A DNA stretch of 64,000 bases from Aestuariispira ectoiniformans (GTDB taxonomy: Bacteria; Pseudomonadota; Alphaproteobacteria; UBA8366; Aestuariispiraceae), in the NCBI RefSeq assembly GCF_025136295.1, contig NZ_CP062788.1, positions 4,295,588 through 4,359,587 of the forward strand, written 5' to 3'. Position numbers and translations under genes: made by a program. The notes under the pieces were generated by a model that saw only the letters and a program-made list of their open reading frames with translations, made no database searches and was not told where the DNA came from. Below, piece by piece: positions 13,210-25,098 of this stretch (position 1 is the first letter of the stretch; each line of letters opens with the position of its first letter).

Positions 13210-13590
13210 TCAATTCTTCTTCCAAAGATTGATTCCTTTTTCCGCCCCACGGCTGACGATATACCCGCCAACGCCAATCTTCAGAAGTTCCCAGAGATGG
13301 TCGGGCATCTCGGCCTTGGGCACATCGAAGATCGGTGCGATGACGTAGTTGTGGGCAACGATATAGCCAAACAAAACCATCAACATCGGGCGCCAGTTCC
13401 GCTGCAGCCAGCTTTCACCCTTGGCTTCCGCGACGACTACTTCGGCGGCTGTTTCTTCGATGCGTGCGCTGTGCTGCAACAATGTTGCCGCCAGTTCCGC
13501 CTCAACCTTATCCCGTTCCACGGTATCGGGTAGAACGCGGTCGAGCACTGTTCCCAAAAGCGGAGCGAGTAAACCAATCAAAGGGGCCAT
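13210..13590 (-). CDS. Phage holin, three-TM GTA type
   Basis: A protein of 126 residues with AAGGAGG upstream. An N-terminal hydrophobic segment (MAPLIGLLAPLLGTVLDRVL), a charged middle, then two hydrophobic segments around WRPMLMVLFGYIVAHNYVIA and LLKIGVGGYIVSRG. This matches the 3TM holin family first described for gene-transfer agents (PF11351). It permeabilises the inner membrane for the cell-wall hydrolase encoded by the neighbouring gene. Last gene of the phage operon. Confidence 0.85.
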   Translation of the reverse strand: MAPLIGLLAPLLGTVLDRVLPDTVERDKVEAELAATLLQHSARIEETAAEVVVAEAKGESWLQRNWRPMLMVLFGYIVAHNYVIAPIFDVPKAEMPDHLWELLKIGVGGYIVSRGAEKGINLWKKN

Positions 13591-13673: not shown

Positions 13674-14150
13674 TCATGATATGTTCTTATAAAAAAGATG
13701 ATTGCCGATTTCCGCGCAAGGGACACGCCCCGCAGCCCACCAGGGATTGAGATCAATATGATGGTAATGCGTCGCGCCGTTGGTCGGATCTTTCAGCGTA
13801 GCGTGTACGGCGCGGCGCGCCACACGAAGGCAGGTCTGAAAGGTCCGGTCGGACTTTTCGACAGCCAGAAGCTTCTCCCGGTTAGGGTCGTTCGCATTCC
13901 AACAGGAATACTGCCAGGGCATCATGCAGACTTCCTCCACGGTCGCCCCCCACCAGTGCCCCCCGCGCGCCTTGGCCTTATTCACACGATTGATAATGGT
14001 GGCGGCAACGGCTTCCTTACCACGCACGGTCTCTCCACGGGCTTCACCCCAAATTGTGCGCGCAAGAATATCGATGGCATTGTCATCCTTGGCCGGCCTC
14101 GCCGGGACACTAATCCTGTCTTTTTCTGCCGAATTACGAAACTCCGTCAT
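13674..14150 (-). CDS. Cell-wall hydrolase (SleB-like, phage endolysin)
   Basis: A protein of 158 residues. Hydrolase_2/SleB fold: LARTIWGEARGE carries the catalytic Glu near residue 37, followed by AVAATIINRV, and PWQYSCWN and GATHYHH farther on. No signal peptide, so it needs the holin to reach peptidoglycan. Its ATG overlaps the stop of the upstream membrane-protein gene (ATGA). Confidence 0.88.
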   Translation of the reverse strand: MTEFRNSAEKDRISVPARPAKDDNAIDILARTIWGEARGETVRGKEAVAATIINRVNKAKARGGHWWGATVEEVCMMPWQYSCWNANDPNREKLLAVEKSDRTFQTCLRVARRAVHATLKDPTNGATHYHHIDLNPWWAAGRVPCAEIGNHLFYKNIS

Positions 14151-14501: not shown

Positions 14502-16004
14502 CTACAGGTCAAAATCATAATCTGCGCGAAGCGACTGCCCCAGGCGCTGCCAGTCAGGCCGCTTGCTCATGTCATTTTGTGAGAACGCCCTATGCAGCCG
14601 AACCGGCTCGCTCAACAAACATCCGGCAACCGCATCCAGCCCGTCATCCGCTCCCGCTTGCTGGGCTCCCGGACGCCATTCCCGCATTTCCCGCAGAAAT
14701 GGGGTCTCCGCGACACTTTCATGCGCCCTGAGATTCCCTGCCGCCAGAACGGCATCGAAGGCTTCGATGATGCGTTTATCTTTCGGTTTTGTGTTGTGCC
14801 GCTCAACGACTGCAACCGATTGCCCCTGTTCTCTCAGAACCGATCGCAAAAGCCCCGGCAGAAACCGACCCACGCCATTGGTTTCCACTGTGACGGAGGG
14901 TAAACAATATTCTTTCAGAAAATCGCAGACGCCGGTGCATTGCTGCCGCGCTTCATCGGTCGGCAAGGACATGTCGACGGCAAGATAGCGAATGGCGTGC
15001 AGCCAATAACCGCCATCGCGATCTGTAAAGACACAGGCGATGACGGAACGGTCTCTCTTGCCGGATGCCCCATAGGCCGGGTCCCACCAGCAGGATGACG
15101 ACACAAGTTCCTTTCCATCCAGCAGCAAGGCCGGAACCCCATTGCGTGTCTCATGGCTCAGGGAGGTATTATAGAGGTCAATCCTGTCAGGGTTCAGGCG
15201 ACCGTCCGAATGGCTGACCGGCCGTAACAGCATCTGGCTTGAGAACTTGTTGGGACCATGTCGCCGACGGAGGTTCGCAATTGCCGCCCTGCCGTATCGC
15301 TCCGGCCAGGCCGGGCGGCCCCGATCATCGTGAATAGGGATGACAAGTCTTTCGAAACCACCCAGAAACGGCTCTTCTTCCCCGCTTTCCGGACGGGCAC
15401 AATCCGCATAGATCGTGTAATAACTGTGGGGCGTTCCTACATAAAGCTGCATCCCGCCGGGAACCAGAATATAATCAATTTCGCTCAGGCGCTGCCTCAG
15501 GTCTTCGCGTTTACCTGCTGTATCACAGGTATTGGGCACCTCGACATCATCACAAATGACAACATCCGCGCGACTGCCGGTCACGTTGGCCCCGATCCCC
15601 CGCGCCAGCATGGACGGGTCTCGCAATTCCAGAGACCGTTGCACAGTGAATCGGTCCGATGCCCATTGATCCGCCCGTTGCGGTTTCAGGCCGACGGCCA
15701 GCGGGTGCCGTTCCAGCACCCGCTTGACGTTGCGGACCATCCGGATTGCCAGCGATTGTTCCGCCGCCAGAACCAGAATTCGAAGATTGGGATTTCGCGT
15801 CAAAAGCCACGCACAAAACAGCCCCACCAGCGTAGACTTCCCGCAGGCACGAAAGGCCATGAGGAGCAGGGCCGTCTCCTGCGAGGACCACATCCTGTCC
15901 AGCCATCGCGCAATACTCTTATGCACATCCGGCGTATCCCGGCCCTGGCTGTGATTCCAGATCCACAGGAATTCAGGAAAACTGGCGCTTGGCGCAACCG
16001 TCAC
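14502..16004 (-). CDS. terL: Phage terminase large subunit
   Basis: A protein of 500 residues from GTG 16004, behind AAAGGGGG. ATPase part: Walker A-like AFRACGKST near residue 51, Walker B VVICDDVE near 149. Nuclease part: WDPAYGASGKRDRS near 310 (acidic metal ligand), VTVETNGVG, and DDGLDAVAG near 460, the usual RNase H-like Asp cluster. It would cut and pump DNA into proheads through a portal, and no portal gene is present here. Starts 4 bp after the candidate small subunit. Confidence 0.88.
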   Translation of the reverse strand: MTVAPSASFPEFLWIWNHSQGRDTPDVHKSIARWLDRMWSSQETALLLMAFRACGKSTLVGLFCAWLLTRNPNLRILVLAAEQSLAIRMVRNVKRVLERHPLAVGLKPQRADQWASDRFTVQRSLELRDPSMLARGIGANVTGSRADVVICDDVEVPNTCDTAGKREDLRQRLSEIDYILVPGGMQLYVGTPHSYYTIYADCARPESGEEEPFLGGFERLVIPIHDDRGRPAWPERYGRAAIANLRRRHGPNKFSSQMLLRPVSHSDGRLNPDRIDLYNTSLSHETRNGVPALLLDGKELVSSSCWWDPAYGASGKRDRSVIACVFTDRDGGYWLHAIRYLAVDMSLPTDEARQQCTGVCDFLKEYCLPSVTVETNGVGRFLPGLLRSVLREQGQSVAVVERHNTKPKDKRIIEAFDAVLAAGNLRAHESVAETPFLREMREWRPGAQQAGADDGLDAVAGCLLSEPVRLHRAFSQNDMSKRPDWQRLGQSLRADYDFDL

Positions 16005-16007
16005 GTT

Positions 16008-16355
16008 TTACCCCCTTTCGGTGTCCAGAGATCCAACGGCCTCCCTTGCGGCTGAAATCAGACCGTCCAGAGCGGTATCATTACCGTCGTCATCCCCATC
16101 GTCATCCGGCAGCCCGTCTGCCAGGTTCAACAGATTTTCCAGATGGGAAAGTGCTGTCTTTGCCGCGGCAAGCTGCGCTCCCTGTGCCTTGGGCTCTTCA
16201 GGCATTGGCGTAGACAGGATGCGATCATAGGCCTCAAGGGCAGCACTCAGCATCGACGGCAGTTTCTCTGCCACTTTTCGCCTGATCACCTCGGCCTTCG
16301 ACCGACGGCGGCGAGAACCTCTCCTGTTAGAGGGAAATTGACTGCGTTTTTTCAT
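16008..16355 (-). CDS. Candidate phage terminase small subunit
   Basis: A protein of 115 residues. The N-terminus is very basic (KKRSQFPSNRRGSRRRRSKA), followed by a helical middle and an Asp-rich stretch (DDDGDDDGND). Size, a basic DNA-binding start and position immediately before terL support a TerS role; no sequence family was recognised. No strong Shine-Dalgarno is visible. Confidence 0.5.
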   Translation of the reverse strand: MKKRSQFPSNRRGSRRRRSKAEVIRRKVAEKLPSMLSAALEAYDRILSTPMPEEPKAQGAQLAAAKTALSHLENLLNLADGLPDDDGDDDGNDTALDGLISAAREAVGSLDTERG

Positions 16356-16387: not shown

Positions 16388-16741
16388 TTAAAGCACGTTG
16401 AGGCCTGCCGGTCGAACCGCTTTCAGTTCTTCCGGCGTGGCTGCAGCGTCGATAGCCGGATCTGCCGGAGCATCACGCAGGGCCTGTTTCCGGGACACGA
16501 TGACGGACGTGTCTGCACCGCTTTCGAGTGCCTTCATGAAATCCGCATCCAGGCCTTCTAGGGCAGGGGTGCGGACCTGACGAATTTTATCTCTCCAGAT
16601 GTCCCGCGCCTTTGCCATATCCACGTCGATGACGGGTTGGTCCGGCTTTATCCATGCTTCGCGAAAGATGCGATCGGCGGGGACCGAAACGTCAGCGGCA
16701 TTTACGGTTGCTTCAGGGGTCTTGATATAAACTTTTGTCAT
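16388..16741 (-). CDS. Phage protein, probable tail-fibre assembly chaperone
   Basis: A protein of 117 residues beginning MTKVYIKTPEA; ATG 16741 overlaps the stop of the previous gene. The body contains RQVRTPALEGLDADFMKALE and RKQALRDAPADPAIDAA, the pattern of C-terminal domains in tail-assembly chaperone-like proteins of many prophages (DUF4376-like). Position after the fibre genes fits a fibre-folding helper. The call is by resemblance, not a firm family match. Confidence 0.55.
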   Translation of the reverse strand: MTKVYIKTPEATVNAADVSVPADRIFREAWIKPDQPVIDVDMAKARDIWRDKIRQVRTPALEGLDADFMKALESGADTSVIVSRKQALRDAPADPAIDAAATPEELKAVRPAGLNVL

Positions 16742-17163
16742 GCGGCTAGTCTCCATGCGTTGCGAAATCCCCTGTCCTCAGGGATTTGATGTTTCTGACA
16801 AATATAGAATTTCAGACGGTTGGCCGTTTCGTCCTGCCAGACATGCGAAGGCACGTCCTTCCGGATCAAATATTCGATGGCCTGTTCCTCCGTCATCGGC
16901 CCGAGTGGCGGCGTTTCGTGCAGGATATGCCCGTTCAGAACATGGCCTTTCTCGTCAATCTCCAACTGGTGATAGACCTCCACCGGCGGCAGGATGCCGC
17001 CCGCCAGGGCACAGGCCATCCACTCAGGAGCCGGAACCAGCACCGCCGCCGCCTCATCCATGTCACATTCGAAAACCACCCGGTAGTCCGTTTCGACGGG
17101 AGCGAGGTTTTCCTTTGCCCAGAGAAGGCGGTCGAATAGCGGCAACTCTGAAAGTGTCGTCAT
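16738..17163 (-). CDS. Uncharacterised phage protein
   Basis: A protein of 141 residues with GGAG seven bases upstream. It contains two short acidic/aromatic segments (PVETDYRVVFECDMDEAAAV and HVLNGHILHETPPLGPMTEE) and no membrane helix. It lies between fibre accessory genes and the chaperone candidate and overlaps the latter by 4 bp, so it probably belongs to the adsorption apparatus or its assembly. No known domain recognised. Confidence 0.6.
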   Translation of the reverse strand: MTTLSELPLFDRLLWAKENLAPVETDYRVVFECDMDEAAAVLVPAPEWMACALAGGILPPVEVYHQLEIDEKGHVLNGHILHETPPLGPMTEEQAIEYLIRKDVPSHVWQDETANRLKFYICQKHQIPEDRGFRNAWRLAA

Positions 17164-17355
17164 GGGAGTTCTCCATGTGCAGCCAAACTGTTATCAGAAT
17201 TGTCGCGTCCACGTTGCCCCCGTTCAGACTGTTGAAAGGTCCGTGGCGCTCGATACATTCAAGGACACAACGTTGTTGATCTGGTCATAGTGCGCTCAGG
17301 GCTTTACGCGCCCTCCATCCACATGAAGCCCATTGATATCAAGTTGGCTTCTCAT
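17164..17355 (-). pseudogene. Decayed third copy of the fibre-accessory gene
   Basis: A good ribosome site (GGGGAG) precedes ATG 17355, but the frame reads 19 codons (MRSQLDINGLHVDGGRVKP) to TGA. In the same frame downstream lies NNVVSLNVSSATDLSTV, clearly like VVRESLNLSSMLDNGVG and AIRDSLNVSSTTDIIVG of the two intact paralogues. In another frame the 3' end reads AAHGELP then TGA, matching HNVAHGDLA of the gene at 18106. Internal stops, a frameshift and a shortened middle indicate decay. Confidence 0.65.
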
Positions 17356-17732
17356 GCGATTCTCCCCGACGTACGCATAAACACATGATTAACGTCAACA
17401 GCAGTAGCGCCGCTGTCGTCAGAAACGCGAACACGACAATTGCTCTCTGCATATCCCGTTAATGGCGTCATGCCTCGGAAGGAGGAAAGGACGCTAAAAT
17501 CTGGGGCTTGTGAATAAGCACTCGCCATAACATTTGCATAATTGCAGCCATAAAGCCCGACACCATTATCCAACATAGAAGACAAGTTCAGACTTTCTCG
17601 AACAACGGTGTTGACGCCGTCCATACACGCCCAAGCTTTAGCCGTTCCATGCACCACATAGTCAATTCCAACCTCATCCACGCCAGCAGATGACCCCGGC
17701 TTTTTCAGCTTGTTTGCTTCAATGGTACTCAT
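17352..17732 (-). CDS. Phage tail-fibre accessory protein, paralogue 1
   Basis: A protein of 126 residues. It shares with the upstream gene the pattern AKAWACMDG...VVRESLNLSSMLDNGVGLYG, a motif seen near the ends of podoviral tail-fibre proteins (KAWVNF...SFNVSSITDNGTGDYTVNF type), so it is probably a small beta-rich fibre-tip domain made as a separate protein. ATG 17732 overlaps the upstream stop. Confidence 0.65.
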   Translation of the reverse strand: MSTIEANKLKKPGSSAGVDEVGIDYVVHGTAKAWACMDGVNTVVRESLNLSSMLDNGVGLYGCNYANVMASAYSQAPDFSVLSSFRGMTPLTGYAESNCRVRVSDDSGATAVDVNHVFMRTSGRIA

Positions 17733-18106
17733 GCGAGGTCTCCATGTGCAACGTTGTGAACGAACGTCAGGTCAGCATTGCTTGTGCCCGCAGCATTAAG
17801 CCCCAGAACGTGCTGGACGCTCGCCGTACTCCCTAAAACATGGTCTCCAAGCTGGCCCTGAACATCAGTCACGCCGCTGGCTACCCCCATTGTCACCGTG
17901 CGTAGAGAACTCGAAAATGCATTGGTGAAGGCATAGGCGTATTTCCCCACGATAATGTCTGTCGTGCTGGACACATTGAGGCTGTCGCGTATTGCCCCGT
18001 TCGTCATGTCAAAGTTGATCCGCGCTTTCGCCGCGCTCTGCCCGGTCAGGTCAACGGGTTTCCCGTCCGGTTTCTCGATCTGTTTTACCTTCAGTTTTCC
18101 GTTCAT
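17729..18106 (-). CDS. Phage tail-fibre accessory protein, paralogue 2
   Basis: A protein of 125 residues, related to the next gene downstream by KARINFDMTNGAIRDSLNVS and GKYAYAFTNAFSS. It starts directly after the fibre gene's stop, with GGTGG in the fibre's last codons as ribosome site. It probably attaches to or replaces the fibre tip in receptor binding. The tandem arrangement suggests duplication and divergence. Confidence 0.65.
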   Translation of the reverse strand: MNGKLKVKQIEKPDGKPVDLTGQSAAKARINFDMTNGAIRDSLNVSSTTDIIVGKYAYAFTNAFSSSLRTVTMGVASGVTDVQGQLGDHVLGSTASVQHVLGLNAAGTSNADLTFVHNVAHGDLA

Positions 18107-19690
18107 TTACACCACCGTGAGTGTTGAGCCGTCGGGGATTGTCAATGTGGTTCCCGCCGGGGCGTCGGCGGTGGAGGCATAGGCCGTTGGTGCATCCGTC
18201 TGGCAAAGCTGCGCCCCCCAGAGGTAGAGACCTTCAGAAGTCACGCCCGTATAACTTGGCTGTTGCGCATCATCCGTCATGTAGATATGCAGCGTGCAGG
18301 ACATCTTCAAAGCCCGTTCAGTAACACTAACCCGCCACCAGCCGTTTCCGGCCTCTGCAACATCATAACCGGCCACGGGATCGCCAATGGTCGAGTTGAA
18401 AGTTGTCCCCCCATCAACGAGGTTCACTTTTGCGATGGCGTATAACCCATTGTCCATGACAAGCTGCAGGTTCGCCCTGGTCCGTTGCCCGGCCTTCAAG
18501 TAGATGCTGAACGTGTAGACATTGCCGGGAACGGTCGGTGAAGCCCGCAAAACACGGTGATAGCCGGTTGAGGTGTCTTCTCCCAATTTGTCAGCCGCCT
18601 GGACGCCGTTAGGATCGTTCGTCACATTTTCCGAAACCGTGACACCTGTCTTATCCCAATCCGCAGACCCGAAATCCTCAGATCGCGTTAGTTCGTTTTT
18701 GTCGACAATGGTCAGCGGCCCGGCGATCATGCCATTGACAGGCCCGCCGTATTTGTCCTGCAAGGTCAGGTCTTCGGAAATGATGCGCGGGTTAATGCGG
18801 ATAGGCCCGACAGACGGCCCGCCCAGTTCCACTTCCGGGTCAATTTTCGCCTGGGTCACTGCCCCGTCCGCAAGCTTCACGGTCGTCACGGCCTGATCAG
18901 CAATTTCACCTACTGGCGTCGCCACGCCATAGCGGATTTGGACATTGTCGGTGCCCGCTGGAAACACCCCTTCAATAACACCGTTGGCCAACGCCCAGCT
19001 ATCCTGAAAACGCTCCACACCATCAACAGTCACGAAGACAAGGCTTGAACTGCCGGGGTCCGCAGTCAGCGGACAACTTTGCTGTGCACCGGTACCACTG
19101 AAATATTCGACCCGCCAATACACCAGCTCCGTCAATGTCGATGCAGCCTGAATGGCGTCCTGCCGCGCGGCCTGTGCCTGACTGGCGGCTTCTTCGGCTG
19201 TGGCCGATGACGTAGCAATATCGTCATAGACACGAACCGCCCCGGCTTCATCGAAACCCAGCATCTTTCCGGCACGCCCGGAACTGTCAGGCAGGATCAG
19301 ATCGGGACTGTCATCGTAGATCGGCTTACGCAGAGCATCACTTGCCTGCATCGCGGCCTGTTCCAGCAACAGAACCGAATTATCCAATTCCACATTCAGG
19401 CTGGCAGCCTGCAAAGGCGCCCCTTCGTTAAACTGCGACGCGCGCGCAATAGCCATCGACCGGTAAATGGTGAGGATAGCCCCATCAGAAAGACCGGTTT
19501 CGAATGTTACCGAGCCGCCAGAACCAGCCTCATTTAACGATATTGTATAGGCAGGCGCCTCTTCCATACCCTGGACATGTAAGGCAACCTGGTCTGAAGA
19601 CGTCGTGCCAAAATCAAACTCGTAATCCGTTTGGCCAGTATCAGTTACCACGACTCGGACACGAGGATGTAGATGTAGATTTTCGCTCAT
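18107..19690 (-). CDS. Phage tail fibre protein with T7-type N-terminal domain
   Basis: A protein of 527 residues. ATG 19690 is chosen for its AAGGAA; the open frame extends 45 codons upstream without homology. Residues 1-130 match the T7 tail-fibre attachment domain (VVVTDTGQTDYEFDFGT, then MAIARASQFNEGAPLQAASL). A short Ala-rich coiled stretch (TAEEAASQAQAARQDA) follows. The C-terminal half (NELTRSEDFGSADWDKTGVT; GNGWWRVSVTE) is a carbohydrate-binding-like beta domain. It binds the host surface. Confidence 0.88.
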   Translation of the reverse strand: MSENLHLHPRVRVVVTDTGQTDYEFDFGTTSSDQVALHVQGMEEAPAYTISLNEAGSGGSVTFETGLSDGAILTIYRSMAIARASQFNEGAPLQAASLNVELDNSVLLLEQAAMQASDALRKPIYDDSPDLILPDSSGRAGKMLGFDEAGAVRVYDDIATSSATAEEAASQAQAARQDAIQAASTLTELVYWRVEYFSGTGAQQSCPLTADPGSSSLVFVTVDGVERFQDSWALANGVIEGVFPAGTDNVQIRYGVATPVGEIADQAVTTVKLADGAVTQAKIDPEVELGGPSVGPIRINPRIISEDLTLQDKYGGPVNGMIAGPLTIVDKNELTRSEDFGSADWDKTGVTVSENVTNDPNGVQAADKLGEDTSTGYHRVLRASPTVPGNVYTFSIYLKAGQRTRANLQLVMDNGLYAIAKVNLVDGGTTFNSTIGDPVAGYDVAEAGNGWWRVSVTERALKMSCTLHIYMTDDAQQPSYTGVTSEGLYLWGAQLCQTDAPTAYASTADAPAGTTLTIPDGSTLTVV

Positions 19691-19709
19691 CCGTTTGTTC
19701 CTTTCCCAA

Positions 19710-20126
19710 TCAATCCGGCAACTTGCTGTAAACGGATGAGAAACCGTTGGCTCCACGTTGTATCTGCCCAAACTTGTAGGCAGAGGCATTCGCCTTATCT
19801 TCCAGCAACAAACCGCGAGCGCCAAAATACGAATTTTCCCTCATATCCGCCATACGTTGCTGGCTTTCCTCACGGATACCACGTGTCACGGCGTCAGCCG
19901 ATCCTCCGGTTCCGCCAATCCCCGCAGCACCGAAATGGGCAATCGCCTGTGCACGCTGCCGTCTTTCCTTTTTATTTTCCTCACGTTCAGCCTGCTCCAA
20001 TTGAGCTTTTTGTTGTTCCATCTGGAGATTGGTTTTCTTTTTTTGGTATTTTCGCTGCTGTTGTGCGCCAGCCATGCTAGCCGCGGCGGATACAGCAGCG
20101 GCAACTGCGGCAGCATATGTCGCCAT
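19710..20126 (-). CDS. Internal virion protein-like phage protein
   Basis: A protein of 138 residues with AGGAGGAAG upstream. The N-terminus is Ala-rich and hydrophobic (TYAAAVAAAVSAAASMAGAQ), followed by a Gln/Lys/Glu-rich helix and GAAGIGGTGGSADAVTRGI. This resembles the small core proteins (gp14-like) between tail and fibre genes of T7-like phages that are ejected into the host envelope. The larger core proteins gp15 and gp16 are absent. Confidence 0.6.
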   Translation of the reverse strand: MATYAAAVAAAVSAAASMAGAQQQRKYQKKKTNLQMEQQKAQLEQAEREENKKERRQRAQAIAHFGAAGIGGTGGSADAVTRGIREESQQRMADMRENSYFGARGLLLEDKANASAYKFGQIQRGANGFSSVYSKLPD

Positions 20127-20137
20127 ATCTTCCTCCT

Positions 20138-22045
20138 CTATTGTCCCAATGCTGATATTTCGGTGAGCACCGACAGGATGGTGCAGGGAAGCGGTACGTC
20201 CTGTTCGATCCGCCAGAGCGGTGTGGTGTCGCCGCGGGTCCAGCCAAGCGCCCGGATTGTCTTGTCGCCGGTAAAGGGCGGCGTCGGCGTGTCCAGCACC
20301 TCGGTTGTGTTGAAGCGGCGGAAGGGCACGACGGTCAGGCCCTTGCCGGTATCGATGGTCAGCGCACGCGTATCCAGAAGGCGGAAGGTCCCGCGCACCA
20401 GACGCACCGGCGATCCCTGTCCCGCACCAAAACCACCGGCATGGAAGACCGGCAACGGCACGATTTCATGGGCGTAGGCGAGGCCGATTTCCACTTTTGA
20501 GGCCGGGTTGGAAAGCCCAATCTCACCCGATGACACAGTCAGAACACCCTGATAGATGCCATCGGCCACCACCTGGACCGCATCGCCGTCCAGATGATCA
20601 AGACCACCCCAGACGGTTCGGGCCGTTCCGCTTTCGGCTGTAACGGCGCTGTCCGTATTCAGGGATGCATCGAAGCGTTCCACGTAGATACCGCTCTCAC
20701 GGTCCACCAGGGCATAGACATCGTCGCCCACGGCACAGACCGACAGGAAGTCGCCATCGGTTTCATAAACCGTCCAGGCCGTGACCTGTTCCTGGCGATA
20801 GACGGTGACCGTTGCAATCGTGCCGTCCCCCATCACCAGATACATCAAACGCGAGGATTTCTGGAAATCCTGATCCAATGGATTTTTGAGGACATGACGT
20901 GCCAGAATAGCCAGATCGTTGGACTGATACGCCTGTTCCACGTCGGTGAAGAGGAACTCACGCAGTTCCGTACCCGTACGGGACACGTACAAGGTTGCAC
21001 CGTCCACATCGCGTGGCGGAACGGACCGGTCAACCGGCGAACCGACGCGGGTTTGGCGTTTGAGTTGCAGATTGGTCGGGGTCAACGGGTCGCCGGTCAC
21101 CATCCATTCCGCGCCTGAGGTGAAAACCTGTAGGTGACGGCCGGAAAAGACAGCGCGAATAGCATTCACCTGGTCGGACAGAATGGCAAATTCAATTGCC
21201 TCATCATCCTCCCCGGTTCCCAGATCGAAATTGAACAGGTCGGAGGATTTCGACAGCCATATCCGGTTGGGCAGATCACGGGAACCACCAACCACCATGC
21301 GGTCCTGATGGAAGCAGACCGCCACCGGCCAGCCCCGAACCGCGGAGAACGCCTGTTCCTCCCAGTCCTTCGTAGCATCGGTATTGTCGAGTGTCTGCTT
21401 GACCTTGGCAGTCGCACTCGTCGTCGAGGCCACCGCCGTGATTTCCACTTCCTTGTCGATGATGCGGAAGCGCGTTCCCACATGGGCCGCGACAAACAGG
21501 TTGCCCGATGCGGTCAGGGTCACCGTGCCACTGGTCGCGCTGGCTTTCAGCGTGATGGCATCCTTTGAGAACTTATGGGTCGGCTGATAAATGCGGCCGT
21601 CTTTCTCAAAGAAGGACCAGTCTTCAATCTCGAAAGTCGTCGCATCCTTGCGCAGGATTTTTTTCGGCGGCACTTCCGGATGACAGATCAACAACGTATC
21701 CGCACTTTGCGTCCAGGTGATGCTGCCGATCTGGTTTTCCGCCCAGGGGGCGTCAATAGTCGCAATGACCGCGTCATCTTCAAGCACCGACACCTTCTGA
21801 TCGGTAAAAACCAGCAGATAGGTCTGTTCGGTGTTGAACTCGAAGGCGACCAGACGCCCCCGGCCCAGGGCCGCCGCGACAAAGCGCAGGCCCGGACGGC
21901 GGGACAGGCCGCCGGTCGGGAAAACCTGCACATTGCGCAGGCGGCGCGCACCGTTGGTATAGGCGGTCAGGTCACCGCGCCCCAACAGGCGTTCATTCAC
22001 CTCGCCCGCGGTAAAATTGGTTTTGAGCAGTTTCAGGCGCGGCAT
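20138..22045 (-). CDS. Phage tail tubular protein B-like / tail nozzle protein
   Basis: A protein of 635 residues. The opening FTAGEVNERLLGRGDLTAYTNG and NVQVFPTGGLSRRPG are typical of podoviral tail nozzle proteins. The body has beta-propeller-like repeats (QDRMVVGGSRDLPNRIWLS; TELREFLFTDVEQAYQSNDL). It forms the distal tail tube. ATG overlaps the tail tubular A stop by one base (TGATG), so translation is coupled. Confidence 0.82.
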   Translation of the reverse strand: MPRLKLLKTNFTAGEVNERLLGRGDLTAYTNGARRLRNVQVFPTGGLSRRPGLRFVAAALGRGRLVAFEFNTEQTYLLVFTDQKVSVLEDDAVIATIDAPWAENQIGSITWTQSADTLLICHPEVPPKKILRKDATTFEIEDWSFFEKDGRIYQPTHKFSKDAITLKASATSGTVTLTASGNLFVAAHVGTRFRIIDKEVEITAVASTTSATAKVKQTLDNTDATKDWEEQAFSAVRGWPVAVCFHQDRMVVGGSRDLPNRIWLSKSSDLFNFDLGTGEDDEAIEFAILSDQVNAIRAVFSGRHLQVFTSGAEWMVTGDPLTPTNLQLKRQTRVGSPVDRSVPPRDVDGATLYVSRTGTELREFLFTDVEQAYQSNDLAILARHVLKNPLDQDFQKSSRLMYLVMGDGTIATVTVYRQEQVTAWTVYETDGDFLSVCAVGDDVYALVDRESGIYVERFDASLNTDSAVTAESGTARTVWGGLDHLDGDAVQVVADGIYQGVLTVSSGEIGLSNPASKVEIGLAYAHEIVPLPVFHAGGFGAGQGSPVRLVRGTFRLLDTRALTIDTGKGLTVVPFRRFNTTEVLDTPTPPFTGDKTIRALGWTRGDTTPLWRIEQDVPLPCTILSVLTEISALGQ

Positions 22046-22614
22046 CAGTTTCGGGCCTCGATCAGGGTATTGGCCTCAAAACGCGGCGGCACATCCTGTT
22101 GCGCGTCGATCAGCTTGGCCTGGCGTAATTCCTTTTCCGCCATCTGGAACAGGACTTCCGTGCGGCTGACGCTTTCGGTTAGCGGCAGGCAGAATTCCGC
22201 CGCCATACGCATGATCAGCGCCTGGTCGAAAAAGGCCGGAAAGGCCGCCTCATGGGGCCGGAAGATATAGGTCAGCGTCACGTCTTCGGCGTTGGTATGC
22301 AGGCGGCGTTCGACAATCTGATAGTCGATACCGCGCCCACGACTTTCCGGGCCGGCAGACAAGGCACGCAGGAAATCATTGGGAAGCTGATAGGCATAAT
22401 TGAAGTCGGCCACGGGCTTTGCCACCAGCCGGGTCAACCTTTTCTGCGTCGTGGCGAAATTCCACGGATAGGCGGACAGGACCGCGTCGCGGGTGGAGGG
22501 GTAGAGCAATCCGGCGGCGACACTTTCCGCCGTGCCGTCCTCGAAACTGGCAATCGGCTCCCCGCCCAGTTTCAACAGCGCGCGGCTGCATATGGCGATA
22601 CTGCTTAGCGCCAA
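22045..22614 (-). CDS. Phage tail tubular protein A-like (adaptor/gatekeeper)
   Basis: A protein of 189 residues. The start is taken as TTG 22614, since AGGGAGA lies six bases upstream and the protein then begins LALSSIAICSRALLKLGG as in family members. Motifs: LYPSTRDAVLSAYPWNFAT, YAYQLPNDFLRALS, and ALIMRMAAEFCLPLTE, characteristic of T7 gp11-like adaptors that sit between portal and nozzle. The portal that it should contact is not encoded here. Confidence 0.85.
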   Translation of the reverse strand: MALSSIAICSRALLKLGGEPIASFEDGTAESVAAGLLYPSTRDAVLSAYPWNFATTQKRLTRLVAKPVADFNYAYQLPNDFLRALSAGPESRGRGIDYQIVERRLHTNAEDVTLTYIFRPHEAAFPAFFDQALIMRMAAEFCLPLTESVSRTEVLFQMAEKELRQAKLIDAQQDVPPRFEANTLIEARN

Positions 22615-22640
22615 GGCAAATCTCCCTGGTTGGGCCGTCC

Positions 22641-22664
22641 CGCCCCGGCACAAAAGCCGGGGCG
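22641..22664 (-). promoter_or_regulatory. 9-bp hairpin between capsid-side and tail genes
   Basis: CGCCCCGGC (22641-22649) pairs perfectly with GCCGGGGCG (22656-22664) around a six-base loop, in the 76-bp gap before tail tubular A. There is no U tract, so it is not a classical terminator; an mRNA-stability or attenuation role that keeps capsid-side transcripts in excess is possible. Confidence 0.5.
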
Positions 22665-22690: not shown

Positions 22691-22960
22691 TCAGTCGGTA
22701 TTAGTGGCGGAAAGGCTGGACATATCCGCCACGTCCACCACCATGTTGGTGTTGCCGGTCACCGCGAACAGGCCGGTCGTCAGCGTGCCGTCGGTGTCCA
22801 CGTTGGCAACGATCAGGTCACCAACACGCAGCATATGCGCCGCCTCGTTGAAATAGCCGCTGCTGTCCACATCGGCCGCCAGATCGGGCGTCGTGTAATG
22901 CCACATGGTGAAGCCGTTGGCATAGGCGATCACGCTCAGGTCTTTGCTCTGATAGGCCAT
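22691..22960 (-). CDS. Small phage protein encoded next to the capsid gene
   Basis: A protein of 89 residues. Start at ATG 22960 with AAGGAGGT at six-base spacing. Sequence MAYQSKDLSVIAYANGFTMW, then HYTTPDLAADVDSSGYFNEA, with a Thr/Asp-rich end. No membrane helix. The location 2 bp after the capsid stop suggests a head decoration or stabilising protein, but this is inference from position only. Confidence 0.7.
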   Translation of the reverse strand: MAYQSKDLSVIAYANGFTMWHYTTPDLAADVDSSGYFNEAAHMLRVGDLIVANVDTDGTLTTGLFAVTGNTNMVVDVADMSSLSATNTD

Positions 22961-22962
22961 GA

Positions 22963-23808
22963 TCACACCTCCTTACAGCGCAGGCGGACAATGCCCGTTG
23001 CATCGACCAGACCGGCACCCTGGCTCATCATGTTGTTGACGAAATGGGAGGCCCGGTCACCGTGATAGGTGATGTCGGATTTCACATCCTGGCCGGAGGC
23101 ATGGCCGATGGCCGTTTTGTGATACCAGTAGCAGTAGCGCAGGTCGCTGCCGTCCTTTTTCAGGCCGGAATGCGGCATCCAGAGCGTACCCAGCCAGCGT
23201 TTTGCCTGTGTCCCTTTCCAGGGCAGGCTTTCATCGCCCACATAGTCCGCGTTGGAAAACTCCTTGATATCCAGCAACTGGCCCCATTGACGCCAGCCGA
23301 TGATGGCGAAACGCTGGCCGTCGTCGGGCACATCCGCCTCTCCCAGCATCTCAAAGGCCTTGAGCACCTTTTCCTTGGTCAGGCCGTCACTGTCGGTCAG
23401 GCCCGTGCCGGTGCCTTTGGCCTCACGCTCCGCACCCAGACCGTCCAGCTTTTCGATGATCAGCTCGTCGGTCTTGCGGCCCAGGGCATAGGCACCCGCA
23501 TTGGCGGTGACCATGCGTTCGTCGATATTGGTTTTCAATTCGTCCAGGGAATCGACCCAGTCCCCGGCGTAATAGTCCTGCAGGACCACCTCGATCGGTT
23601 CATGGTCGATATTCATGACCGGCACCTTGCCATGACGGGCCTTGGTGCTGGCCGTGCCCTTGCCCACCTTCTGGAAAGTGGTGCTAGACCCTTTGACGTT
23701 GTTCTTGCTGCGCACCGTATTGCGCAATTTGGAGCCCATCCGCTGATAGGCTTCGTGCACCTCCGCCTGGAAATGCTTCGTGAATGACTGGTCTACCGAG
23801 GTAGACAT
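22963..23808 (-). CDS. Phage major capsid protein
   Basis: A protein of 281 residues. ATG 23808 with GAAGGAG is the true start; the open frame continues 81 codons upstream into non-coding leader. The sequence STSVDQSFTKHFQAEVHEAY, KVGKGTASTKARHGKVPV, and DYYAGDWVDSLDELKTNIDE matches the podoviral phage capsid family (Phage_capsid_2 type). First gene of the late operon as preserved; scaffold and portal genes that usually precede it are missing. Confidence 0.85.
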   Translation of the reverse strand: MSTSVDQSFTKHFQAEVHEAYQRMGSKLRNTVRSKNNVKGSSTTFQKVGKGTASTKARHGKVPVMNIDHEPIEVVLQDYYAGDWVDSLDELKTNIDERMVTANAGAYALGRKTDELIIEKLDGLGAEREAKGTGTGLTDSDGLTKEKVLKAFEMLGEADVPDDGQRFAIIGWRQWGQLLDIKEFSNADYVGDESLPWKGTQAKRWLGTLWMPHSGLKKDGSDLRYCYWYHKTAIGHASGQDVKSDITYHGDRASHFVNNMMSQGAGLVDATGIVRLRCKEV

Positions 23809-24140
23809 GGCATCTCCTTCAAAATCGCATCTGTTTTTGGGAAAGGGGGATCGCGGCCGGTTATCGCAGGACCTGGGAAACCAGGGACCAGGGGATGTCC
23901 CACAGGGGGCATAAAGATCACTGCGGCCGGCGGCGAACCGGAAAAGGGGATGGGCCGGTGCGAGGAGGCATGGGGCCGGGACGTCTCGGGGCGGTGCCTT
24001 TCGGCTCTTCAACGCGTCAGGCGCGCGCCCATCTCCTACAGTCCCACCCAAAGGCGGTTATCCATCCGGGGATACTGATCACAGGAACGATGGTGAAATC
24101 TGAGATCGCCTCAACGAGCGATCCATCACCCGTCCCGTGA
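23809..24140 (-). other. Gene-free leader between putative late promoter and capsid
   Basis: A GC-rich stretch with open frames but no protein-like translation on either strand. It contains the nested helices at 23948-24049 and a small CCTGG-gaaa-CCAGG hairpin (23872-23885). It may be an untranslated leader, or the scar where upstream phage genes (portal, scaffold) were lost. Confidence 0.5.
23948..24049 (-). ncRNA. Candidate structured RNA in the capsid-gene leader
   Basis: On the minus strand, 5' GGGUGGG (24049-24043) pairs with CCCAUCC (23954-23948). Inside it, AGGAG-AUGGG (24037-24028) pairs with CCCAU-gc-CUCCU (23974-23963), 5+5 bp with a 2-base bulge. The enclosed loop holds a CGCG hairpin (24013-24025) and a GCC-GAAA-GGC tetraloop hairpin (23996-24005). 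No known riboswitch class was recognised. It lies 140 bases before the capsid start and would be transcribed from the putative promoter at 24148-24176. Confidence 0.5.
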
Positions 24141-24147
24141 TGATTGA

Positions 24148-24206
24148 GAGATAGCAAAGGCGTTCCTAAAAGTCAAGAACAAAATGAGAACATATATGAC
24201 TTTTAG
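24148..24206 (-). promoter_or_regulatory. Putative LexA-controlled leftward phage promoter
   Basis: Read on the minus strand: a direct repeat GTTC-N7-GTTC (24191-24177), the alphaproteobacterial LexA box pattern, directly abuts a -35 TTGACT (24176-24171). A 17-bp spacer leads to -10 TATCTC (24153-24148). A 10-bp inverted repeat CTAAAAGTCA/TGACTTTTAG (24166-24175 and 24197-24206) brackets the box. Transcription would enter the capsid leader. A GTTC-N7-GTTC match is expected about twice by chance in 64 kb, so the weight comes from its position. Confidence 0.5.
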
Positions 24207-24316: not shown

Positions 24317-24718
24317 ATGGACAGCGCATATCAATGGATATTTAGCGGAGTGGGCACATCTTTTGTTGGTGCAATTTTGTCTCTTTTTTTCGCGTTGGTA
24401 TCGCGCAAGTTTCGGAATGACGCACGAGACCAAGTAAAAGCAACAAAGGGTAAAATGCTTGCACCTCGGTTGGATAACGCCATTTCCGCACTGCACAGAT
24501 TAAGGACCCAACCGCAAAAATCGTTCGACCAAGCTTCCGCGCTGATGGGAGAGTTTCTTACCGAATTTCCAAGCCAAACTAAAGAGTACAAACAAGTAGC
24601 AGATGCGCAAAGGCTTTGTCACAGCTATCAAACTGTGCTTTCCAGCCAGCAAACGGACGACTTAGCATTCGAAATTCGGACTATTTTGCAGAACGTTTCA
24701 GCGGACTTGAAGAACTAA
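24317..24718 (+). CDS. Uncharacterised small membrane protein, cassette gene 1
   Basis: A protein of 133 residues, with GAGAGGG upstream. One membrane helix at about 7-29 (WIFSGVGTSFVGAILSLFFA), then a basic junction (SRKFRNDARDQVK) pointing to a cytoplasmic C-terminal part of mostly helical character. AT-rich compared with the surrounding genes, suggesting transfer. No family recognised. Probably cotranscribed with the gene 20 bp downstream. Confidence 0.6.
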   Translation: MDSAYQWIFSGVGTSFVGAILSLFFALVSRKFRNDARDQVKATKGKMLAPRLDNAISALHRLRTQPQKSFDQASALMGEFLTEFPSQTKEYKQVADAQRLCHSYQTVLSSQQTDDLAFEIRTILQNVSADLKN

Positions 24719-24738
24719 GACACTTAGGATGGCTATTC

Positions 24739-25098
24739 ATGGAATTAGAAGCAGAGATCAAAAAGATCAAATTTCAAATATCTCTGATTGGTGAAGCAAT
24801 CAGATATAACGAGAACCCACTAACCAGCCTTGTTATCGAGTTGGATTGGTCCGAAGAAGACCTGGAAGCGGCTCATGACTGCTTCGAACAAGCCGAAACT
24901 GTCCTCAATAACAATCCACAAGACTTTAATAATGTAATGTTCGAAAAACTCTTCAAGGAAAAATTGGGCGTGGGGTACCAGAGAGTCAAAGCGATAGTGC
25001 TGGCATTCTATCGAGAACATCGCTGGACATCCGTGTGCGTAGCCTATGCAAATTCTTTCGGGGACACGCGGCCGTCTGAATTGATGAGCATTACATAA
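24739..25098 (+). CDS. Uncharacterised small soluble protein, cassette gene 2
   Basis: A protein of 119 residues from ATG 24739; the frame is open for 41 more codons that overlap gene 1 and look spurious. An N-terminal helix (MELEAEIKKIKFQISLIGEA) is followed by LVIELDWSEEDLEAAHDCFE, an acidic helical middle and YQRVKAIVLAFYREHRWTSV. No signal peptide, membrane helix or recognised domain. Its pairing with a membrane protein beside a prophage would fit an accessory or exclusion/defence pair, but this is inference from context. Confidence 0.6.
   Translation: MELEAEIKKIKFQISLIGEAIRYNENPLTSLVIELDWSEEDLEAAHDCFEQAETVLNNNPQDFNNVMFEKLFKEKLGVGYQRVKAIVLAFYREHRWTSVCVAYANSFGDTRPSELMSIT

Follow-up and report, generated by a model that had tools for sequence, protein, structure and literature searches.

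The window, meaning the whole 64-kb stretch of DNA analysed here, contains a candidate promoter on its minus strand that is directed at a run of phage-type capsid, tail, fibre, terminase and lysis genes. The site spans positions 24141-24206 and is made up of the following features.

24177-24191, minus strand: LexA-type box GTTCTCATTTTGTTC, GTTC-N7-GTTC read from the sequence, matrix score 21.9
24171-24176, minus strand: -35-like hexamer TTGACT, abutting the LexA-type box
24148-24153, minus strand: -10-like hexamer TATCTC, weak (three of six matches)
24166-24175, no strand assigned: left arm of a 10-bp inverted repeat, CTAAAAGTCA, overlapping the -35
24197-24206, no strand assigned: right arm of the 10-bp inverted repeat, TGACTTTTAG

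The spacer between TTGACT and TATCTC is 17 nt (24170-24154, minus strand), and the arms of the inverted repeat bracket the LexA-type box. Direct reading located the box, both hexamers, the spacer and the bracketing repeat exactly where the preliminary description had placed them. A scan for consensus promoters did not call TTGACT-N17-TATCTC, and no 10-bp inverted repeat was seen flanking the box in relatives. The same description had the promoter pointing at phage late genes, and this agrees with the genes identified downstream on the minus strand, among them those for capsid, tail, fibre and lysis proteins.

22963-23808, minus strand: major capsid protein (PF19821, phrog_3437)
22691-22966, minus strand: small conserved protein o91 (phrog_18004)
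22045-22653, minus strand: tail tubular protein A-like (phrog_394)
20138-22045, minus strand: nozzle, or tail tubular protein B-like (phrog_376, PF25675)
19710-20126, minus strand: internal virion protein-like (phrog_418, weak)
18107-19825, minus strand: tail or spike fibre with a GTA_spike_fiber domain (NCBIfam NF048003)
17729-18106, minus strand: tail-fibre-like (phrog_11355)
17352-17732, minus strand: tail-fibre-like (phrog_11355)
16738-17163, minus strand: conserved cluster protein o141
16388-16756, minus strand: conserved cluster protein o122 (phrog_20196)
16008-16355, minus strand: protein o115, upstream of terL (phrog_31793)
14502-16004, minus strand: T7-type terminase large subunit (NF033889, phrog_38)
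13674-14150, minus strand: endolysin, cell wall hydrolase (PF07486)
13210-13590, minus strand: holin (PF11351 GTA_holin_3TM; phrog_3427)

Virion structural, packaging and lysis genes are all present in the genome, with capsid, tail, terL, endolysin and holin in the window and the portal and scaffold genes, of which the window holds none, elsewhere. A family search of the scanned cluster genes of the window and of one full relative (L101) found no replication or integration genes. We rejected a synteny with argJ and mutT suggested by ORFs p419 and p128, which are antisense of a DEAD-box helicase gene and of the holin gene, respectively. Between the promoter and dapD lie two small ORFs of 133 and 160 aa (24317-25098, plus strand). 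Neither gave a family hit above the cut-off, the second showing a weak match to DUF1878, and no homologues were found at the capsid loci of relatives. The 133-aa ORF, p133, has a probable membrane helix at its start and might also be served by the LexA box.

The motif GTTC-N7-GTTC is documented as the LexA motif of Alphaproteobacteria (PMC12907096, PMC3323433). In the window's genome the same motif lies 92 bp upstream of recA, 86 bp upstream of lexA and approximately 49 bp upstream of an imuA-like gene, which identifies it as the LexA box of this genome and bears out the identity that had been given to it from general knowledge of the group.

The preliminary description spoke of phage late genes. 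The cluster is not an ordinary phage but one part of a scattered element, derived from a podovirus and inherited with the host, of which the portal and scaffold genes lie 243 kb away. This division explains the missing portal. A portal search found exactly one portal gene in the whole genome, in a unit at 4.074 Mb that comprises a divergent S24/HTH regulator gene, a gene for a 163-aa protein (g163), the portal gene and T7-type scaffold genes. A third unit, located at 0.949 Mb, carries a peptidoglycan-binding virion-type gene, whose homologues in relatives are found inside or beside the phage cluster. Rather than a complete phage genome with replication genes, we found late genes only, distributed over three unlinked units. 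Strict LexA boxes are present on all three. The portal unit has two of them upstream, one situated 7 bp before TTGACT-N18-TATACA and the second overlapping a ribosome-binding site; since the best portal-side box has this overlap, its conservation may be partly translational. In the third unit the strict box GTTCTATATATGTTC lies 257 bp before the peptidoglycan-binding gene.

A relative of the capsid gene is present in 11 of the 14 family genomes, the window's own included, as a single copy per genome. Ten of these capsids are at 72% identity or above and the remaining one, from G004, is an outlier at 42%. The family as used here includes Curvivirga and Marivibrio (Aestuariispiraceae in NCBI ranks). 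Across GTDB genomes, at least 534 matched stretches from Rhodospirillales and Acetobacterales encode a capsid relative, a lower bound in which the stretches need not be distinct genomes; the best 80 of them come mainly from Azospirillum, Niveispirillum, Magnetovibrio, Elioraea, Roseomonas, Belnapia and related MAGs. Among the matches listed, most loci have an unsplit layout in which a divergent S24 gene faces the order X, g163, portal, scaffold, capsid, tail, terL and endolysin. The capsid unit has left this locus in the window's family, where the S24 and portal genes still adjoin a branched-chain aminotransferase gene. The same neighbour was seen in Terasakiella, Ferruginivarius and Azospirillum, and across families an S24 gene is near a branched-chain aminotransferase gene in 22 of 48 loci.

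The first gene of the LexA-headed operon, gene X (L101:4429-4797 and its homologues, alignment A2), is conserved, small and helical, at approximately 110-155 aa. It gave no match in Pfam, PHROG or NCBIfam; its fold was modelled confidently as helical (pLDDT 87) with no match in the PDB (all E > 2), and it was not found in the window's genome. We also observed related capsid (62%) and portal (50%) genes in MT838907.1 (L263), a 5-kb scaffold obtained from human faecal samples and recorded without annotation as 'Bacteriophage sp.'.

Where the S24 gene faces the first gene of the operon, the intervening gap has a perfect N7 box in 24 of 48 loci and a box with at most one mismatch in 39 of 48, compared with 4-13 of the 48 loci for other spacings (4, 5, 6, 8, 9 and 10). 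An earlier count over the same gap had given strict N7 boxes in 23 of 38 loci and 0-2 for other spacings. The box at the capsid promoter is kept less widely. The expectation that relatives with the phage genes would also keep it was borne out in G010 and G012, and in G002 apart from one mismatch, and failed in G006-G009, G011 and G013, where the box is absent or degenerate. Over 83 capsid upstream regions we counted 8 strict N7 boxes, against 0-2 for most other spacings and up to 4-5, and with this weak enrichment the idea of a box conserved at the capsid promoter in all relatives was rejected. In L064, L099 and L101 a perfect box lies over the -10 of a capsid-proximal promoter. Putative SOS regulation of the element is thus widely kept among relatives, and the exact window box belongs to the window's own lineage.

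We consider it likely, with some reserve, that the site is a LexA operator over a sigma-70-type promoter, and that this promoter serves the capsid-tail-terminase-lysis unit of an element resembling a gene transfer agent (GTA), domesticated from a podovirus and scattered over at least three units. LexA bound to the boxes would block RNA polymerase, at the window site from a position abutting the -35. On DNA damage RecA would become active and LexA would be cleaved, and the unlinked units would then be transcribed together. Capsids would be assembled and filled through the T7-type terminase, and the cell would lyse through the action of holin and endolysin. The cargo would most likely be host DNA, because no genes for replication or integration were seen in the scanned cluster. 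The binding of LexA, induction by the SOS response, the making of particles and the packaging of host DNA are steps that we infer from sequence, and the element probably ships host DNA between bacteria.

It is also conceivable that the box is real and belongs to a decaying prophage remnant, in which control by LexA is left over from ordinary prophage induction and particles are not formed. Such a history would fit the split cluster, the failure to find an integrase and the degenerate S24 regulator in the window's family, and a phage lysozyme in the core genome of Azospirillum has previously been described as a remnant (PMC3899980). However, the reading frames are open throughout, each dispersed piece has its boxes, and dN/dS values from six species pairs lie mostly at 0.01-0.2, while short genes give outliers that reach 0.42. 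The wide occurrence of capsid relatives also speaks against decay, as does the match between the element tree and the host tree. In nine family genomes the element tree agrees with the recA+lexA tree, one weakly supported placement excepted. A tree of capsid and nozzle follows taxonomy, with one odd Acetobacterales row, 'Roseomonas genomospecies 6', that groups with A. brasilense and is perhaps misnamed. We regard a decaying remnant as unlikely, though worth keeping in mind. The trees and substitution ratios indicate that the element is inherited with its hosts under purifying selection, and that its domestication is old, which sets it apart from a recent prophage.

A domesticated, SOS-controlled particle could also have a use other than gene transfer, for example as a killing or lysis device. 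The holin, endolysin and fibre genes are conserved, and PBSX packages DNA without delivering it, a case discussed in PMC12946183. Against this, the capsid, scaffold, portal and T7-type terminase genes are all under purifying selection, as expected if DNA packaging matters, and we think a particle of this kind rather improbable here.

The element had been described as lacking a repressor of its own; this is incorrect, as the S24/HTH regulator gene was found beside the portal half. Outside the window's family the catalytic Ser and Lys of this regulator are kept in 12 of 12 aligned loci, nearly always together with an Ala-Gly cleavage motif, whereas in the window's family, where the element is split, the Ser/Lys pair is lost in 8 of 8 aligned members (alignment A3). 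Searches with the S24 protein against PDB sequences and NCBIfam gave no match. The regulator of the window's family resembles RogA of Caulobacter, which represses GTA activators (PMC9632790), in combining an HTH with an S24-like domain without catalytic residues. It is plausible that, in the window's family, direct LexA control may have replaced self-cleavage of the regulator. In most genomes the conserved box adjoins the S24 gene, which would also suit an operator for the element's own S24/HTH regulator instead of one for LexA. This is very improbable, as the identical motif stands before recA, lexA and imuA, none of them linked to the element, and the Caulobacter promoters bound by the S24-type repressor RogA have inverted repeats, GGAA-N4-TTCC, instead (PMC9632790).

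Taken as a bare motif, GTTC-N7-GTTC is not rare. It occurs 114 times in the 4.36-Mb genome, compared with 86 for a reversed control pattern, and the earlier estimate of about two chance occurrences per 64 kb agrees with our own figures for the window, 1.94 expected and 3 found. At that rate the box could be a coincidence. We constructed a weight matrix from the boxes at recA and lexA in the 14 family genomes, a training set that includes those of the window's genome and excludes the window box. The window box scores 21.9, within the range of the recA and lexA training sites (13-27.9). In 40 simulated 64-kb Markov-1 sequences no site reached this score, and sites of 20 or above arose at 0.025 per 64 kb. 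The box also outscored 300 of 300 shuffles of its own 600-bp upstream region (p = 0.003). It ranks seventh by score among the 100 of 114 strict genome boxes that were listed, and up to about nine others could outrank it. Given this matrix score, the abutting -35 and the strict boxes that three unlinked parts of the element each carry, a chance match is highly improbable, and by these measures the window box is beyond one. That the box, which lies approximately 125 bp upstream of the divergent small gene p133 (24317-24718, plus strand) and as a direct-repeat LexA box could act either way, mainly serves that gene and not the phage genes is hardly credible, as the matching -35 abuts it only on the minus strand, p133 lacks both a Pfam or PHROG match and a homologue in the loci of relatives, and the capsid-promoter box recurs in G010, G012 and G002.

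Several strict boxes elsewhere in the genome were also observed. At L262:3443 (G000:417,442, minus strand) the box GTTCCTATTTTGTTC abuts TTGACT in the same architecture as at the window site, and precedes a stretch of approximately 480 nt, flanked by a desaturase gene and htpG, in which no gene is evident; it is possible that this stretch encodes an SOS-controlled small RNA. The top-scoring strict box among those listed in the genome (L261:10093-12380; G000:162,092, plus strand) abuts TTTACT, upstream of two related alpha/beta-hydrolase-like genes, neither of which was found in phage clusters. A further strict box (L108:1448; G000:734,547, plus strand) stands before a 263-aa ORF that by eye resembles a phage Gp37/Gp68-type protein.

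Within the leader, between the promoter and the capsid gene, a second motif recurs.

24055-24062, minus strand: leader motif GATAACCG, copy 1
23858-23865, minus strand: leader motif GATAACCG, copy 2

The consensus GAYAACCG is present in 54 of 83 capsid leaders (L024-L103 and the window), twice in 20 of them, and almost only on the sense strand; its core AYAACC has 113 sense-strand copies in the capsid leaders and 7 on the other strand. A small predicted hairpin fits 50 of the 113 AYAACC copies, compared with a background of 7.5%. These counts come from an exploratory search and are to be read as descriptive. The Azospirillum group has the motif inside the loop of a strong hairpin resembling a terminator, and in the window leader no intrinsic terminator was found. 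The leader of the peptidoglycan-binding unit has two related copies, ACAACC and ATAACG. A search of the leader gave no match to an Rfam family. It is possible that the GAYAACCG motif is an RNA control element.

The closest true phages are pelagiphages of the HTVC010P type (e.g. EXVC031P Hodr), with 47% identity in the capsid and 34% in the portal. These are phages of approximately 34-40 kb, whereas the genes of the present element follow the host tree. RcGTA and its relatives (Rhodogtaviriformidae; Caulobacter GTA) are likewise defective phage genes inherited with the host and located at several dispersed loci, and the RcGTA type shares with this element the same holin (PF11351) and spike-fibre (NF048003) families and a nearby RogA-like S24/HTH gene. 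In contrast, the capsid, portal, scaffold and terminase here are of the T7/HTVC010P type, and RcGTA is siphovirus-like. RcGTA is controlled by CtrA, GafA and quorum sensing. We rejected the presence of an RcGTA-type element in the window's family, as the RcGTA marker GTA_TIM (PF13547) was found in 0 of 14 family genomes, with a positive Caulobacter control. In the RcGTA-type cluster of Dinoroseobacter shibae, LexA sites were predicted in silico only (PMC6473078).

The first podovirus-like GTA, FpGTA of Faecalibacterium, was reported only in 2026; it differs in its Gram-positive host and in forming a 10.5-kb operon, and the accessible text of that report mentions no LexA boxes (PMC12946183). 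BhGTA, or VSH-1, of Brachyspira has a divided genome, as does this element, and a host of a different phylum. Its gene content presumably differs as well. BhGTA is induced by mitomycin C (PMC9662315; see also a title cited in PMC3899980). In Azospirillum lipoferum and Azospirillum sp. B510, mitomycin C led to particles with approximately 10 kb of DNA, suspected of being GTAs (Boyer 2008, as cited in PMC3899980), and later authors proposed other loci for them (PMC3899980). Azospirillum, the genus of these particles, carries the present element. The particles seen by Boyer are reportedly siphovirus-like. No description of the element was found in the open-access literature searched. GTAs as such, a podovirus-like GTA, a mitomycin-inducible GTA and predicted LexA sites in a GTA cluster are already known; the element described here would be a new form among these, if particles are made.

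A more far-reaching proposal, on which we are evenly divided, is that the element represents an ancient GTA lineage, directly controlled by LexA, that arose from an HTVC010P-like podovirus independently of RcGTA and spread by descent in Rhodospirillales and Acetobacterales. Within the window's family the element would have been split and its S24 regulator would have lost self-cleavage, with the pieces in this genome having LexA boxes of their own, and the conserved GAYAACCG leader hairpin, often paired, may add a second layer of control. GTAs have been described for few lineages, and if this proposal is true, a second podovirus-type GTA lineage, inherited through two alphaproteobacterial orders, would widen the concept of what a GTA is. 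The host orders include the easily grown Azospirillum, Roseomonas and Terasakiella, and the genes of the element are candidates for those behind the unexplained particles that mitomycin induces in Azospirillum. The switch of this GTA would be known and simple to trigger, namely DNA damage, and would offer a way to ask whether the release of GTAs is tied to the repair of damaged genomes.
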